A stretch of DNA of 64,000 nt from Caldovatus sediminis. Its GTDB lineage: Bacteria; Pseudomonadota; Alphaproteobacteria; Acetobacterales; Acetobacteraceae. The position numbers and the translations under genes are program-made. A model generated the notes under the pieces. The model was given only the letters and a program-made list of their open reading frames with translations. It was not told where the DNA came from and searched no databases. Where the stretch lies: the NCBI RefSeq assembly GCF_014644455.1, contig NZ_BMKS01000003.1, positions 275,930 to 339,929 of the forward strand, written 5' to 3'. How positions within the stretch are numbered: the stretch's first letter is position 1; the number at the start of each line of letters is the position of its first letter. This document shows, one piece after another, positions 40,359 to 48,483 of the stretch.

Positions 40359-41480
40359 TCATCCCGCCGCGCCGATGGCCGAGCGGAACCGCGCCAGCGC
40401 GCAGGCGAACAGCGCCGAGCCGATCACCGCGAGCGCGACAAACTGCGGCCAGACCACCGACAGCCCCGCGCCGCGGTAGAGGATCGCCTGCGCCAGGATC
40501 ACGAAGTGGGTCGTCGGCGCGGCGAGCATCGCGAACTGCACCGCCTCCGGCATGCTCTCGCGGGGCGTCGAGCCGCCGGAGAGCATCTGCAGCGGGATCA
40601 TCACCAGGATCAGCAGCAGCCCGAACTGCGGCATCGAGCGCGCGACCGTGCCGAGGAAGATGCCCATCGAGGTGGTGGCGAACAGGTGGACGGTGGCGCC
40701 GGCGAGGAACAGCGCGACCGATCCCCCGATCGGCACCGCCAGCAGCCCCTGCACCACGAAGGTCAGCGAGAAGGCCGCGGCGAGCAGCACCACCAGTCCC
40801 ATCGCCCACACCTTGCCGGTCATGATCTCAAGGGGCGTGACCGGCATCACCAGCAGGTGCTCGATGGTGCCGTGCTCGCGCTCTCGGATCAGCGCCGCGC
40901 CGGTGAGCACGATCGAGAGCATGGTGACGTTGTTGATCACCTGGACGATGGCGCCGAACCAGGACTTGTTCAGCTCGGGATTGAAGCGTGCCCGCAGTAC
41001 GAGGTCCACGGGCGGCGTTTCGCGTGCGCGGTCACGCCGGACGAACGCCGCCACCTCGTCGGAGACGATGGCCTGGATGTGGCCGCTGCCGACGAACGCC
41101 TGGCTCATGCGGGTGGCGTCCACGTTGAGCTGGATCGCCGGGTTCCGCCCGGCCAGCACGTCCCGCTGGAACCCGGGGGGGATGTTCAGCGCGAAGGTGT
41201 CGAGCCCGGCGTCCATCCGCGCGTCCATCTCGGCCTGGCCGATCATCGCGGGCGGCAGGAAGTAGGGCGGGTAGAACGCGCCCGCGATGCGGGTCGAGAG
41301 CGGCGAGCGGTCCTCGTCCACGATCGCGATCGGCGCCCGGTTGAGCGTCTCCGGCAGGGCGGTGGAGGAGGCGTAGATCGCCAGGGTGAAGGCATAGGCG
41401 ATCAGCGCGAGCATGATCGGGTCGCGGGCGAGGCTGCGCAGCTCCTTGACGCCGAGATGGAAGACGTTGGCGGCGCGCAT
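40359..41480 (-). CDS. yhhJ: ABC-2 type permease, YhhJ-like
   Basis: A 373-residue inner-membrane permease of the ABC-2 exporter class. It has one N-terminal helix (about 21-40), a periplasmic domain of roughly 140 residues, then five C-terminal helices from about 180. The ABC-2 cytoplasmic segment REREHGTIEHLLVMPVTPLEIMTGK and QMLSGGSTPRESMPEAVQ are as in YhhJ. Its gene starts 5 bases after the end of rbbA in a yhiI-rbbA-yhhJ order, so it is most likely the separate half of an exporter whose other permease half is fused to RbbA. Confidence 0.88.
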   Translation of the reverse strand: MRAANVFHLGVKELRSLARDPIMLALIAYAFTLAIYASSTALPETLNRAPIAIVDEDRSPLSTRIAGAFYPPYFLPPAMIGQAEMDARMDAGLDTFALNIPPGFQRDVLAGRNPAIQLNVDATRMSQAFVGSGHIQAIVSDEVAAFVRRDRARETPPVDLVLRARFNPELNKSWFGAIVQVINNVTMLSIVLTGAALIREREHGTIEHLLVMPVTPLEIMTGKVWAMGLVVLLAAAFSLTFVVQGLLAVPIGGSVALFLAGATVHLFATTSMGIFLGTVARSMPQFGLLLILVMIPLQMLSGGSTPRESMPEAVQFAMLAAPTTHFVILAQAILYRGAGLSVVWPQFVALAVIGSALFACALARFRSAIGAAG

Positions 41481-41485
41481 CGCCC

Positions 41486-44263
41486 TCAGCGCTCCTGCTT
41501 CCGGAGCAGCGCTGCGGACAGTCCGATCAGCACCGGCGCGGCGAGCGCCAGCGGGACGAAGGCCGCCCGCAGGTCCTGGAACTCCAGCGCCTTGGAGAAG
41601 GTGCCGCGCGCGATGTTGAGGTAGTGCGTCGTCGGATAGACCTGCCCGATCAGGGCGCCCGCCCCCTCGAGCGACGACACGGGATCGAGCAGGCCGGAGA
41701 ACTGGGTCGCCGGCAGCATGGTGATGATCGCGGTCCCGAAGATGGCGGCCACCTGGCTGCGCATGAAGGAGGAGATCAGGAGGCCGATCGCCGTCGTCGC
41801 GGCGACGTAGACGAGCGTCGCCGCAGCCAGCGTCGCGAAGCTTCCCGTGAAGGGCACGCCGAAGGCGGTGACCGCGAGCAGCGCGAGCACCAGGAAGTTC
41901 AGCATCGCCAGCAGGAGGTAGGGCATCTGCTTGCCGAGCAGGAACTCGAGGCGGGTGACCGGCGTGACGTGGAAGTTGACGATCGAGCCCAGCTCCTTCT
42001 CGCGCACCACGCTGAGCGCGGTCAGCATCGCCGGGACCAGCAGCAGCAGGATCGGGATCATCGCCGGCACCATGGCGACCAGGCTGCGGACGTCCGGGTT
42101 GTAGCGGAACCGCGTCTCGATCGTGAAAGGCGCCGGCGGGGCGGCCGCGCCGCGCGCGCGGGCCGCCCGCTCGGCCAGCCACCGCGCGTGCATGCCTTCC
42201 ACGTAGCCGCGGACGGTCTCGGCGCGCATCGGCATCGCGCCGTCGATCCAGGCGCCGATCTGCGTCGGCCGGCCGCGCGCCACGTCGCGCCCGAAGCCCG
42301 GCGGGATCTCGATCGCCACGCTCAGCTCGCCCGCGCTCATCCGCCGGTCGAGCTCAGCGTGGTCGGCGAGCGGCGGCCGCTCGATGAAGTAGCGCGAGCC
42401 GGCGATGTTGAGCGCGTAGTCCCGGCTGGTCGTCGTCTGGTCGCGATCGAGCACGGCGACGGTGAGGTCCTCGACGTCCATGCTGATGCCGTAGCCCATG
42501 ATGAACAGGAGGAGGATGCTGCCGACCAGCGCGAGCGTCGCGCGGATCGGATCGCGCCGCAGCTCCAGCACCTCGAGATTGGCGTAGCTCAGCATGCGCC
42601 GGAGGTCGAAGCCGCGGTGCCGCGCCGGGCCGCCCGCGCCCGCCGGCGCCGCGGCCGAGACGGGCGGGCCGGCCGCTGCCGTCGTGGGCTCCTCCCCGGC
42701 CTCGCGCGCCGCCTCCTTGAGATAGGCGATGAAGGCGTCCTCGAGCGTCGCGACGCCGCGCTCCGCGATCAGAGCGGCCGGCGCGCCGCTCACCAGGACG
42801 CGCCCGGCGTGCATCAGGGAGATGCGGTCGCAGCGCTCCGCCTCGTTCATGAGGTGGGTCGAGAGGAAGATCGTCACCCCCTCGCGGCGCGCGAGGTCCA
42901 CGAGGATCCGCCAGAAGGCGTCGCGCGCCACGGGGTCCACGCCCGAGGTCGGCTCGTCGAGGATCAGCATCTCCGGCCGGTGGATCATCGCCACGGCGAG
43001 CGAGAGCCGCTGGCGCTGGCCGAGCGGCAGGGCGCTCGGCAGCGCGTCCATGATCCCTTCCAGGTCGAAACGCCGCGCCATCTCCTCGACGCGTCCGGGG
43101 ATGGAGTCGGCGGGCAGGCGGAACAGCCGCGCGTGCAGCTCCAGGTTCTGCCGCACCGTCAGCTCGGCGTAGAGCGAGAAGCCCTGCGACATGTAGCCGA
43201 CCCGGCGGCGGGTCTCGATGTCGTGCGGGTTCACCTCCTGGCCGAACAGCCAGGCCTGCCCCTCGCTGGCCGGCAGCAGGCCGGTCAGCATCTTCATCGT
43301 CGTCGTCTTGCCGGAGCCGTTGGAGCCGAGGAATCCGAAGATCTCGCCACGGGCGATGCGGAAGGTCACGTGGTCCACCGCGACGAAGTCGCCGAAGCGC
43401 TTGGTCAGCCCGCGCGCCTCGATGGCGACGGGCGCGCCGTCCTCCTCCGCCCGGCGCGGCGGGATCCTCACCGGCCGGTGGCCACGGCGCTTCTCCTCGG
43501 GCAGCAGGGCGACGAAGGCCTGCTCAAGCGAACCGGCGCCGGTGCGCGCGAGCAGCTCGCGTGGCGCCCCGGTGGCGAGCACGCGCCCGGCGTCCATCGC
43601 CGCCAGCCAGTCGAAGCGCGCCGCCTCCTCCATGTAGGCGGTCGCCACCAGCACGCTCATCCCCGGCCGCGCGGCGCGGATGCGGGCGATCAGCTCCCAG
43701 AACCGGCGGCGCGCCAGCGGGTCCACGCCGGTGGTCGGCTCGTCGAGGACCAGGAGGTCGGGATCGTGGATCAGCGCGCAGCAGAGGCCGAGCTTCTGCC
43801 TCATGCCGCCGGAGAGCTTGCCCGCTGCCCGGTCCGCGAAGGGCGCGAGCCCCGTGCTCTCCAGCAGCTCCGCGATTCGGCGCTCGCGCTCGGCGCGGTC
43901 GTGGCCGAACAGCCGGCCGAAGAAGTCAATGTTCTCGAACACCGAGAGCGTCGGATAGAGGTTCCGGCCGAGGCCCTGCGGCATGTAGGCGATGCGCGGG
44001 CCGACCGTCCGGCGGTCGCGCGCATCGGCCATGTCGGCACCGAACACCTCGACCCGACCGGACTGCACCGCGCGCGCCCCCGCGATCAGCGCAAGCAGGC
44101 TCGACTTGCCGACGCCGTCGGGTCCGATCAGCCCAGCCATGCAGCCGGCGGGAAGGTCGAGGCTCACCGCATCGAGGGCGCGGACCCGGCCGTAGCGCAG
44201 GCCGACCTCGCGCAGCCGCGCGACCGGCGGCGTCGCCGCGGCGTCCGGCGGGCCGCCGCTCAT
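41486..44263 (-). CDS. rbbA: RbbA-like double-ATPase/ABC-2 permease fusion
   Basis: A 925-residue protein with two ABC ATPase domains and an ABC-2 permease domain. Domain 1 has Walker [10 protein letters not shown] (47-55), signature LSGGM (148-152) and DEPTTG (172). Domain 2 has GSNGSGKTT (311-319), the family's altered signature LPLGQ (410-414) and DEPTSG. The membrane part begins near residue 565, with a large periplasmic loop and five further helices. The E. coli homologue RbbA/YhiH was described as a ribosome-associated ATPase, yet its architecture is that of an exporter. ATGA overlap with the upstream membrane-fusion gene. Confidence 0.91.
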
Positions 44264-45414
44264 CGCGGGAGCCGCACCCGCAGATCGTCCGGCCATTCGA
44301 GGCGCGGATCGAGGCGCACATAGGCCACCCCCGGCAGGCCCGTCTTGACCTGGGCGATGTGCGCCCGGAGCAGCTCGGGCGGGATCCTCGCCCGGATGCG
44401 GAACATCAGCTTCACCCGCTCCCCCGCCGTCTCCACCGTGCGAGGCGTGAACTGGGCGACGTCGGCGACGAACGACACGTGCGCGGGGATGACGTACTGG
44501 GGGGCGGCGTCGAGCACCAGCCGCACCTCGGCCCCGAGCGCCAGGCGGCCCGCCTGCGGCGTCGGCAGGAAGAAGGTCATGTAGACGTCGGTGAGATCCA
44601 CCAGGTTCAGCACCCGGCCGCCGGCCGGCAGCACCTCCCCCGGCTGCGCGATGCGGAACTGGACGCGCCCGTCGCGCGGCGAGCGCAGCGCGCTGTCGTC
44701 GATGTCGGCCCGGATGCGCTGGATGGTCGCGCGCACCGCCTCCGCCTCCGACTCGGCCCCGATCACCTGCGACCGCGCGAGGCCGATGGCGGCCTCCGCC
44801 GCCGCCTCCTGGGCCCGGGCGGCGCTCAGCGCAGCCCGGGCGCGCTGGAAGCCGGCGCGGTCGTCGTCGAGGGTCTGCAGCGGGGCCGCGCCGCGCGCCG
44901 CCAGCTCCTCGGTGCGCGCAAGGCGCCTCTGCGCGGCCTCCAGCTCGGCTTCGCGCTGCGCCACCAGGGCCTGCGCCGCCGACCGCTCCGCCTCGCGCTG
45001 CGCCACCTGGCTGCGGGCGATCTCGATGCCGATGAGGGCGCGCCGCAACTGGGCCTCGGCCTCGCGGAGCTGCGCCTCGAGCACGGCGGTGTCCATCCGG
45101 GCGAGGACCTGGTCCGCGTGGACGAACTCGCCCTCGTTCACCAGGATCTCCCTGACCCGGCCCGGCGCCTTGGTGGCGATGTCGATCTCCACCGCCTCGA
45201 TGCGGCCGTTGCCGCTCGCGAAGCCCGGCGGCAGCCCCTCCGGCTGCAGCGACCGCCACGCCAGGTAGGCGCCGAGGGCGGCCGCGGCGACCAGCGCGGC
45301 GACGAGGAATCTCCGAACCCGGCCCGGGTCACGGCCTGCCGGCCGTCCGGCCGCGTCGTCCCCCGGCCGGTGGTGCGGCGCGGACTTCGCGGCAGGATCG
45401 GGAGGGGAAGCCAT
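44260..45414 (-). CDS. yhiI: HlyD-family membrane fusion protein, YhiI-like
   Basis: A 384-residue periplasmic adaptor with one N-terminal transmembrane helix (about residues 36-53). It has a lipoyl half-motif ([24 protein letters not shown]), a long alpha-hairpin rich in Ala/Glu/Gln (about 110-225), a second lipoyl half ([19 protein letters not shown]) and a beta-barrel end. First gene of the yhiI-rbbA-yhhJ operon. The upstream region carries an FNR/CRP-type operator. No outer-membrane TolC gene is present in the window, so a shared TolC elsewhere would be needed for export across both membranes. Confidence 0.9.
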
Positions 45415-45881
45415 GCATCGGGTCTCCGCGCGGAGGGGGCGGCGAGGGGGTCGGGCCGGTCGCGCCGCAGCGCGAAGGCCGCCGTGGCCGGCTGCCGGTC
45501 AGGCGGCCGCGAACCGCCGGGGTGATGCCGCGGCGGCCCTTGGCGGCCCGCTCTTCGCCTCGCCACTCCGCGAGGCACCGCCGGTGGTCGCAGTCCGGTC
45601 GAAAGTCTATGCCCCCGGCCGGGCGGCGCATCTTGACCCAGGTCAAGCGCGCCACGCTCGAGATTCCGCGCGCGACACGAGATGGCGGCGACACGGAAGC
45701 CGCTGCCGACGCCGTGCAGGGGGCGGACCCGCAGGTCGCGCTTGACGCCCGGCGCCCGACGCCGTTCTTTCTTGGCCGGGGCGCGCCCCTTGGAACGCGC
45801 CACCCGAGGATCCACCTCCCCACCCGCCGCACCCGGCCGCCGGGGCGCCTCACGCACGGACCCCGGCTTCCGACGAGACGC
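45415..45881. other. 467-base divergent regulatory region, yhiI operon / ybhP-like gene
   Basis: No credible gene. Its one clear feature is the FNR/CRP-family inverted repeat at 45632-45647, close to the middle of the region. The plus-strand frame can be read open from 45522, but its product before residue 121 is low-complexity Arg/Pro and looks non-coding. Confidence 0.55.
45632..45647. promoter_or_regulatory. FNR/CRP-family operator
   Basis: CTTGACCCAGGTCAAG: the 14-base core TTGA-N6-TCAA matches the palindromic FNR/FixK/DNR consensus in every fixed position. Both half-sites extend to TTGACC/GGTCAA, with only the central CA breaking the symmetry. It lies 218 bases before the yhiI start and 235 before the ybhP-like start, so either or both could be controlled, for example by low oxygen or nitric oxide. 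Confidence 0.6.
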
Positions 45882-46802
45882 ATGATCCCGCAACGACCGT
45901 CCTCCCCGCCGCGCCAGCCGGGCGCGCCCGATCGCCACGACCTGCCGTCCGAACGCCTCCGTCGCCGCCCCGCCGGCGGCGCGGTGCGCGACCTTCTCGT
46001 CGAGTTCCGCCGTCGCGCCGCGCCGCAGCCGCCGGCGCGGCGGGGGCCGGCGCAGGGGCCCGGCCAGGGGCTGCGGGTCGCGTCCTACAACCTGCACAAG
46101 TGCGTCGGCACGGACGGGCGCTTCGACCCGGTGCGTTCCGCGGCCGTGATCGCGGAACTCGGCGCCGAGCTGGTCGCGGTGCAGGAGGCGGACCGCCGGT
46201 TCGGCCGCCGCATCGGCCTGCTCGACGCCGCGGCGCTGGAGCGCGAGACGGGCCTCGCCCCGCTGCCCGTCTCCGACCTTCCCGGCGGCCATGGCTGGCA
46301 CGGCAACGCGCTGCTGGTCCGGCCCGGCACCCCGGCGCGGCTCCGCCGGTTGGCGCTGCCGGGGGCGGAGCCGCGCGGCGCCCTCGTCGCCGAGCTCGAC
46401 CTCCCGGCCGGGCGGCTGCGCGTGGTCGCCGCGCATCTCGGGCTCCTCCGCCGCTGCCGCGCGCGCCAGGTGGCCGCCATCCTGCAGGTGCTCGCCGAGG
46501 GCGAGCCGATGCCCACGCTCCTGCTCGGCGACCTCAACGAGTGGCGGCCGGGGGCGCGCTCCTCGCTGCGCGCGCTGGAGCCGCTCTTCGGGCCCATCGG
46601 CCCCGGACCGGCGAGCTTCCCCTCGCGCCTGCCGATCCTCGCGCTCGACCGCATCCTGGGGTGGCCGCAGGGGCTGGTGAGCGAGGTTGCGGTGCACGAC
46701 AGCCCGCTCGCCCGCGTCGCCTCCGACCACCTGCCCCTGATCGCCCGCGTCCGGTTGGATGCCGCGGCGGAGGCCGAACCGCCCCTTGCCGCGGCGGCCT
46801 GA
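45882..46802 (+). CDS. Endonuclease/exonuclease/phosphatase-family protein, YbhP-like
   Basis: A 306-residue EEP-fold phosphohydrolase. The catalytic pattern is complete: VASYNLHKCVG with the metal Asn, LVAVQEAD with the metal Glu, GHGWHGNALL, LLLGDLNEW with Asp and Asn, and ASDHLPLIARV with the terminal Asp-His. A 65-residue basic Arg/Pro N-tail precedes the domain and its true start is uncertain (45882 chosen). Next to a cardiolipin-synthase-like gene, as ybhP lies next to clsB in E. coli, which suggests a lipid or phosphodiester role rather than DNA repair. Confidence 0.83.
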   Translation: MIPQRPSSPPRQPGAPDRHDLPSERLRRRPAGGAVRDLLVEFRRRAAPQPPARRGPAQGPGQGLRVASYNLHKCVGTDGRFDPVRSAAVIAELGAELVAVQEADRRFGRRIGLLDAAALERETGLAPLPVSDLPGGHGWHGNALLVRPGTPARLRRLALPGAEPRGALVAELDLPAGRLRVVAAHLGLLRRCRARQVAAILQVLAEGEPMPTLLLGDLNEWRPGARSSLRALEPLFGPIGPGPASFPSRLPILALDRILGWPQGLVSEVAVHDSPLARVASDHLPLIARVRLDAAAEAEPPLAAAA

Positions 46803-46947
46803 GGAGGGAGGAGCGCCGGGCGCCCCTCCCCCGCCCTGCCGCGCCCGCCGCGGCGCCGCCGTCATGGCTGGCGAGAACCGTCGCGTCTGCCGGCCGTTCG
46901 GCCTGCGCCGGCGAGGGGCCGCCAGGGCCGACCGTCGGAGGAGCGGG

Positions 46948-48483
46948 ATGGCCGACCAGCGGACCCAGGCCGCGGCAGCCGGCGGCATGAGCGACGCCAG
47001 CGCCCCTTCCGCCGCCGGGACGGCCGCCATGGCCGTTGACGACGCGGCGGGCGCGGTCCTCGGCAAGCTCGGCGGCGCGCCCGGCGGAGCGTCCCTCGTC
47101 CGGGACGGGCTCGACGCCTTCGCCGCCCGCGCGGCGACTGCGCGCGCCGCGACCCGCCGTCTCGACCTCCAGTACTACATCTGGCACGGCGACGTGACCG
47201 GACGCCTGCTCGCGCGCGAGGTGCTCCATGCCGCCGACCGCGGCGTGCGCGTGCGCCTGCTGCTCGACGACGTCTACGCGCTCGGGCGCGAGCGCATCCT
47301 CGCCGCGCTCGACGCCCATCCCGCGATCGAGGTGCGCCTGTTCAACGGCACGCGCTGGCGCGCCTTCGGCCGGCTCGGCTTCGCGCTGGAACTCGCCTTC
47401 GGCGGCTGGCACCTGAACCGGCGCATGCACAACAAGGCGTGGATCGCCGATGGGCGCGTGGCGATCGTCGGCGGGCGGAACCTCGGCGACGAGTACTTCG
47501 GCGCCGGGGCCGGCGAGTTCAATTTCCGCGACCTCGACATCGCCCTGGTCGGCGCCGCGGCGGAGGGTGCCGTCGCGGCGTTCGAGCGCTACTGGCGCAG
47601 CCCGCTCGCCCGCCCGGCCGCCCTGCTCAGCGCCTCCGCCCAGGCCGCGGACGGCCTGCCGCGCCTGCGGCGGGCGTTCGAGGACGCGGCCGCGGCGCCC
47701 GAGGCGCGGCGCTACCTCGCGCACCTCGGCGAGATCGGCGACGCCGTGGGGCAGGTTGCGGACGGCCTCGTCGCCGTCGGCCGCGACGCGGTGCGGGTGG
47801 TGGCGGACCCGCCGGAGAAGGCGCGGCGCGGGCTCGGGGCGCGGCGCCGAGCGCGCGCCGCCGGCGGCATCGCGCCCGAGATCGCCGACGCGCTGCGCGC
47901 GGCGCGGCGCGAGGCGCTGCTGATCTCGCCCTACTTCGTCCCCGGCGAGGCCGGCCTGGCCCTGCTGCAGGCGCTGACCGGCCGCGGCGTGCGCGTCTCC
48001 GTGGTGACGAACTCGCTCGCCGCGACCGACGTCGTCGCGGTGCACGGCGGCTATGCGCGCTACCGCCGCCGGCTGCTGCGCGCCGGCGTCGCCCTGTTCG
48101 AGCTGAAGCCGAGCGGCCAGGAGGACGAGGCGAGCGTCTTCGGCTCGCGCGGGGCGAGCCTGCACACCAAGGCCTTCGTGGTGGACGACGGGCCGGTCTT
48201 CGTCGGCTCCTTCAACCTCGACCCGCGCTCGGCCGCGCTCAACACGGAGATGGGCGCGTTCGTCAGCCACCCCGCGCTGGCGGCCGAGCTGCGCGCGGAG
48301 CACGACCGCCTCGCCGATCCCTCGCGGAGCTGGCGCGTCAGCCTCGAGGGCGGGCGGCTCACATGGACCGGGACGGGCGCCGGCGGGCGTCTCCAGGTGC
48401 TGCGCCACGAGCCCGGCGCCTCGCTGCGGCGGCGCCTGGTGGCGGGGCTGGTGCGCTGGCTGCCGATCGAGTCGCAGCTCTGA
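46948..48483 (+). CDS. PLD-family cardiolipin synthase-like protein (ClsC type)
   Basis: A 511-residue phospholipase-D fold enzyme with two complete HKD motifs: HNKAWIADGRVAIVGGRN near residue 160 and HTKAFVVDDGPVFVGSFN near 410. The start at 46948 has GGAGGAG 5 bases upstream; several further in-frame ATGs follow within 30 codons. The N-domain LDLQYYIWHGDVTGRLLARE and VRLLLDDV resemble ClsC/YmdC. There is no clear transmembrane helix, so membrane association would be peripheral. Likely makes cardiolipin or exchanges phosphatidyl groups at the inner membrane. Same direction as the YbhP-like gene, 145 bases downstream. Confidence 0.87.
   Translation: MADQRTQAAAAGGMSDASAPSAAGTAAMAVDDAAGAVLGKLGGAPGGASLVRDGLDAFAARAATARAATRRLDLQYYIWHGDVTGRLLAREVLHAADRGVRVRLLLDDVYALGRERILAALDAHPAIEVRLFNGTRWRAFGRLGFALELAFGGWHLNRRMHNKAWIADGRVAIVGGRNLGDEYFGAGAGEFNFRDLDIALVGAAAEGAVAAFERYWRSPLARPAALLSASAQAADGLPRLRRAFEDAAAAPEARRYLAHLGEIGDAVGQVADGLVAVGRDAVRVVADPPEKARRGLGARRRARAAGGIAPEIADALRAARREALLISPYFVPGEAGLALLQALTGRGVRVSVVTNSLAATDVVAVHGGYARYRRRLLRAGVALFELKPSGQEDEASVFGSRGASLHTKAFVVDDGPVFVGSFNLDPRSAALNTEMGAFVSHPALAAELRAEHDRLADPSRSWRVSLEGGRLTWTGTGAGGRLQVLRHEPGASLRRRLVAGLVRWLPIESQL

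Follow-up and report, generated by a model that had tools for sequence, protein, structure and literature searches.

A predicted FNR/FixK-class operator upstream of the putative YhiI-RbbA-YhhJ exporter operon of Caldovatus sediminis

Reported or predicted FNR-family control of similar operons

The operon described here is of the same kind as yhiI-rbbA-yhhJ of E. coli (RbbA family NF033858), and the ribosome-linked name of RbbA ('ribosome-associated ATPase') stems from work on that species. In Pseudomonas aeruginosa we take PA5230-PA5232 to be yhhJ-rbbA-yhiI, in agreement with the printed descriptions, and the regulation of PA5231-PA5232 by Anr reportedly goes back to Trunk et al. in 2010. As is proposed for our locus, a HlyD-side gene and an ATP-binding/permease fusion stand there under an FNR-type regulator; P. 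aeruginosa is, however, a Gammaproteobacterium with Anr, and the operons are likened by description and not by sequence identity. In the sections available of one study, PA5231 ('probable ATP-binding/permease fusion ABC transporter') and PA5232 appear among low-oxygen genes with the entry 'Anr regulated? Yes' (PMC13086522), and excerpts of another name PA5232 among the genes with in silico Anr boxes (PMC6588701). For the Alphaproteobacteria, Table 1 of a regulon reconstruction lists RSP3160 (HlyD), RSP3159 (ABC subunit) and RSP3157 (ABC permease) in the predicted FixK regulon (PMC2908626). RSP3157-RSP3160 share with our locus the HlyD/ABC/permease set and a FNR/FixK/DNR box, a likeness of description to a prediction made in 2010. 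In view of the Anr listing and the predicted FixK regulon, control by the FNR family has already been reported or predicted for an operon that is probably the same as ours. The present analysis contributes the geometry of the promoter across 146 loci, the attribution of the site to the exporter, and one more member, the operon described here.

Class II Fnr promoters with a box like ours are described for Sphingopyxis granuli TFA, where they precede ccoN, uspA, narU and nrdZ; the consensus given in the accessible text is TTGAc/t-N4-g/aTCAA, with most boxes centred at or near -41.5, and the same text yielded no HlyD, ABC transporter or efflux (PMC7713065). The literature searched contained no paper that joined RbbA with Fnr and HlyD, or with Anr and universal stress protein. 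Two HlyD-type proteins raised in micro-oxia were considered and set aside as not tied to RbbA, namely BCAM2140 (PMC3759415; the printed descriptions of BCAM2139 and BCAM2137 are of different protein types) and blr7872 (PMC6515984; also listed as PhaR-repressed, PMC6201568).

The palindrome and the operon it faces

We analysed a stretch of 64 kb (the window; GC content 75%) from a genome of 4.8 Mb that is 98.55% complete. At 45632-45647 it carries the 16-mer CTTGACCCAGGTCAAG, a palindrome of two perfect 7-base arms (CTTGACC and GGTCAAG) flanking CA, which contains the form TTGAY-N4-RTCAA as TTGAC-CCAG-GTCAA at 45633-45646. The first-pass annotation had claimed a match to TTGA-N6-TCAA at each fixed position, a 467-base non-coding divergent setting and the absence of any other such site in the window. 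All of this was borne out: the region extends from 45415 to 45881, between the ATG of the HlyD gene (45414, minus strand) and that of a YbhP-like gene (45882, plus strand), with the site about midway between both genes, and a pattern scan of the 64 kb returned TTGANNNNNNTCAA once, as the only TTGA-N6-TCAA. Dinucleotide-shuffled versions of the window held 0.05 strict sites on average (at least one site in 4 of 100), and with one mismatch tolerated the window contained 6 sites against 1.72 expected. A search for an RNA element between 45300 and 46000 gave no Rfam match at the gathering score. The reading as an ordinary sigma-70 promoter using TTGACC as its -35 element was rejected: none was found in 45300-46200. 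TTGACC is 31 nt away from TAGACT, the putative -10 hexamer described below.

Leftward of the region, on the minus strand, lie genes for a HlyD/YhiI-type periplasmic adaptor of 384 aa (44260-45414; PF13437, 60.2 bits; RND_mfp, 103.7 bits, over cut-off), an RbbA-type fused ATPase/permease of 925 aa (41486-44263) and a YhhJ-type ABC-2 permease of 373 aa (40359-41480; PF12698, 108.5 bits). The fusion of two ATPase domains with a permease was recognized by NF033858 over the full length (1553.6 bits, cut-off 1050), a family that had a match in one of 14 control genomes, that of E. coli; the HlyD protein matched the YhiI-type model PRK03598 below cut-off (141.4 versus 393). The order adaptor-RbbA-permease, with HlyD upstream and the ABC-2 permease downstream, is that of a single operon, and since the HlyD and RbbA genes overlap in ATGA and the permease gene starts 5 nt after RbbA, one transcript is likely. 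By its gene content the set looks like an exporter.

Recurrence of the box and promoter geometry

Loci for comparison with this operon came from several sources. Sampling of the class and the phylum contributed 70 RbbA-upstream stretches, and a search of 200 family genomes gave 43 HlyD matches, of which 30 were turned into loci and 13 were not; further loci were taken from named genomes and from six of the 148 plasmid records that had a match. Five of the 40 rows of the RbbA-upstream survey were omitted, being the window itself or cut by contig ends. Seven of 87 loci were discarded because their upstream DNA was short or no RbbA match was adjacent (L036, which has a relaxed box, L049, L157, L160, L175, L176 and L177). 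After the removal of five near-duplicates, 146 non-redundant yhiI-rbbA loci remained; L031, from a genome of the same family, is nearly a duplicate of L126 of Rhodovarius lipocyclicus (Acetobacterales at NCBI). The scan covered 335 nt, beginning 350 nt and ending 15 nt ahead of a fixed point in the HlyD domain. A strict box was defined as TTGA-N6-TCAA, a relaxed one as TTG[AC]-N6-[TG]CAA.

The first-pass annotation had proposed a comparison of orthologous upstream regions, and its outcome was divided. Over all loci the box recurs before the same exporter far above chance: a strict box was found in 32 of the 146 (31 of 145 without the window) and a strict or relaxed one in 45 (44 of 145), versus means of 0.57 strict (largest 3 in 300 sets) and 3.37 relaxed (largest 8) in dinucleotide shuffles of the 145 loci. 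The spacing was specific: for spacers of 2 to 12 the numbers of loci were 1, 0, 2, 1, 32, 0, 0, 0, 1, 1 and 0, the 32 belonging to spacer 6, and half-sites in swapped order occurred in 3 loci (strict) or 7 (relaxed). In the first 71 loci, neither a strict nor a relaxed box occurred in an equal stretch inside the gene. The DNA around 40 loci, outside the scanned stretch, had 31 boxes in 731,684 bases, or 1.4% per 335 nt, and four stretches accounted for 21 of these boxes. Positions that the pattern leaves free also agreed with the FNR consensus (C or T at base 5 in 32 of 34 boxes, A or G at base 10 in 29 of 34). The loci are mutually related (about nine boxed Pseudomonas loci have almost the same box), so the counts do not represent independent events.

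Among the nearest relatives, on the other hand, the box is patchy. The scanned stretch has no strict box in 114 of the 146 loci, and the 13 nearest loci of the family (L027-L039) include just one with a strict box and five with a strict or relaxed one within 350 nt, and in a further two a strict box lies near -500. No box was present before the exporter in a genome of the same genus (G127, locus L028), and no strict box in Neoroseomonas soli and Rhodovarius. The regulator behind the box may differ between lineages.

Gene neighbours were tried as additional support and discarded, as boxed and unboxed loci differed little (4 of 20 versus 2 of 20, in hand-picked sets in which the boxed L222 has only a relaxed box). 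Genes for AckA/Pta, arc, Hsp20 or FNR-type proteins lie near L129, L152, L183, L208, L221 and L223, and also near the unboxed L230 and L235. At L183, on plasmid 2 of Pseudorhizobium flavum, yhiI-rbbA-yhhJ is placed amid genes for acetate kinase, phosphate acetyltransferase, arginine deiminase, a CBS protein and a USP, and the scanned stretch before HlyD has no strict or relaxed box. Unboxed yhiI-rbbA pairs, with HlyD 43-47% identical, were also seen in metagenome bins of the Lentisphaerae/Lentisphaeria (L159, L163, L164, L166, L167, L170 and L171).

To look for a promoter next to 48 strict or relaxed boxes, we scored the hexamer at every gap on either strand as a -10 element, by base frequencies. 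On the exporter strand the mean score was 1.13 at a gap of 22 and at most -2.15 at each other gap from 0 to 44, and on the opposite strand it never rose above -3.89; a gap of 22 corresponds to a box at -41.5, as in class II promoters. In the window, where a spacing of about 22 nt was looked for, a putative -10 hexamer TAGACT (45604-45609, minus strand) follows the operator at a gap of 23 with a score of 6.5, and on the opposite strand nothing resembling a -10 hexamer stands at the class II distance (best -6.3). Judged from the -10 position alone, transcription would start at 45597 on the minus strand, with a leader of about 183 nt. The gap of 23 rather than the family peak of 22, and the long leader, would be points against such a promoter; none of the 34 boxes lies farther from the HlyD domain than this one, at -331, the next being that of L125 at -327. 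The other 19 strict sites of the genome, scored on the best strand per gap, gave 0.7 at gap 22, -0.5 at 21, -1.1 at 23, and -2.9 or lower at the remaining gaps from 10 to 39.

Other sites, candidate regulators and the most probable reading

A scan of the genome had likewise been suggested, and with the pattern TTGA-N6-TCAA it did find sites at genes that fit, the excess itself being modest by the reversed-pattern control (20 sites versus 13 for the pattern read backwards). Boxes lie at, or in front of, ccoNO (both TIGR00780 and TIGR00781 scored over cut-off), a USP gene, a Sulf_transp gene and two Hsp20 loci, one of which continues with a gene that reads as GroEL. The exporter operon probably shares one regulon with the cbb3 oxidase, USP and Hsp20 genes. 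We also noted, where a glycogen-synthase-type gene begins, 14 bases identical to those of the window site (L004:3501-3514; G000:C4:299517), and, about 60 bases before the first gene of a second exporter made of a HlyD_3 protein and a MacB_PCD/FtsX permease, the site TTGACCTGCATCAA (L009:3001-5383; G000:C9:117695). An island with genes for RtcB, a phosphoribosyltransferase, GYD, DUF3775 and a B12-type RNR-like protein (L012; G000:C14:11447-26434) has four TTGA-N6-TCAA sites in about 7 kb, and a FixK-like gene (C14:2578) is found on the same contig.

The genome encodes candidate regulators suited to the box. HTH_Crp_2 had ten matches, six of them over cut-off. Close to its N-terminus, an FNR-like protein (C1:264638) has the pattern C-x2-C-x7-C, and another of its cysteines is aligned with a cysteine of a solved FNR; the FixK-like protein C14:2578, nearest to FixK2 (4i2o), is without such a cluster. 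In both the recognition helix reads ETVSR, and Glu, Ser and Arg are named as the residues of this helix for the Fnr box in the accessible part of PMC7713065. Both proteins scored below the NCBIfam equivalog cut-offs, and their upstream regions contain no box, one mismatch included. A third regulator, FtrB-like, adjoins a NarK-like transporter gene (TIGR00886, below cut-off) with two boxes. The two objections foreseen in the first-pass annotation, an unconserved box and the lack of a fitting FNR/CRP regulator, do not hold: the box recurs before the same exporter, though in only some of the genomes and in few of the near relatives, and two ETVSR proteins are encoded.

The 16-mer is very probably an FNR/FixK-class operator that serves the exporter and not the YbhP/PLD genes, and we have good confidence that it would act in a class II, FNR-type activated promoter reading leftward into hlyD(yhiI)-rbbA-yhhJ. 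When oxygen is short, an FNR/FixK-class dimer would occupy TTGAC-N4-GTCAA near -41.5, replace a -35 element and bring RNA polymerase to TAGACT, so that the exporter would be made under oxygen or energy shortage. Our confidence in the regulator (C1:264638, C14:2578 or both might act) and in the signal is lower than that in the site and its direction; oxygen or energy shortage fits the company of the other genome sites.

The first-pass annotation had left it undecided whether the exporter or the divergent genes are controlled, and the -10 geometry and its strand speak for the former. The genes on the other side, both probable bystanders, encode a YbhP-like member of the endonuclease/exonuclease/phosphatase family (45882-46802, plus strand; PF03372) and a PLD-family protein (46759-48483, plus strand, start codon uncertain; PF13091). 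An FNR-type site in a divergent region can serve both directions, and the position of the palindrome, roughly halfway between the two genes, would suit control of this pair, alone or together with the exporter; nevertheless we regard such control as very improbable, given the poor best class II -10 score on that strand and the comparison of YbhP homologues. In 60 genomes of the family we found 19 besides the window's own, 18 of them with readable upstream DNA, and none of these 18 is preceded by a strict or relaxed box (three have a one-mismatch site). PLD adjoins 8 of the 14 homologues with at least 50% identity, which makes ybhP-PLD a unit of its own, and the exporter adjoins none of the 14; conversely, in the flanks read of 85 exporter loci (up to 1.5 kb for 30, 6 kb for 49 and 9 kb for 6) the ybhP/PLD pair was present once, as the window's own copy. 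A genome of the same genus (G047) carries ybhP (74%) with no box in front of it, and a search at E 1e-40 gave no match to the exporter there. Together, the -10 spacing, the strand and the YbhP comparison therefore indicate that control points to the exporter.

A real operator that answers to another signal or works in another mode, for instance by repression or through a CRP/FNR-family protein that is FtrB-like or of the NO-sensing Dnr/NnrR type, is unlikely, though less so than control of the YbhP/PLD genes. Members of this family have nearly identical boxes, according to the part of PMC2908626 at hand, and the genome offers six candidates over cut-off, including the FtrB-like protein beside the doubly boxed NarK-like gene; the -41.5 geometry, however, is typical of activation, the genome does have an FNR-like protein that bears a cysteine cluster, and the P. 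aeruginosa case is attributed to Anr in the available sections of PMC13086522. We give equally little credence to a functionless chance palindrome as to control of the divergent pair: the small genome-wide excess, some sites that have no clear target (e.g. L003 and L006) and the mostly missing box in the closest relatives would agree with it, but it has against it the recurrence before the same operon, the spacer specificity, the -10 spacing, the strand bias and the rarity of the site in shuffled windows.

With the class II operator of the exporter as the preferred reading, the window site is ordinary in kind, similar sites recurring before the same exporter in other Proteobacteria. We tentatively suggest, as a possibility that we would not yet favour, that in a good share of proteobacterial lineages YhiI-RbbA-YhhJ is a dedicated exporter for low oxygen or energy shortage, with a substrate that arises mainly then, a class II FNR/FixK promoter gained or kept repeatedly, and a role that was hidden by aerobic work and by the name of RbbA. 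A recurring low-oxygen promoter would indicate when the substrate should be sought, namely in oxygen-limited cells in which the FNR-type regulator is active.
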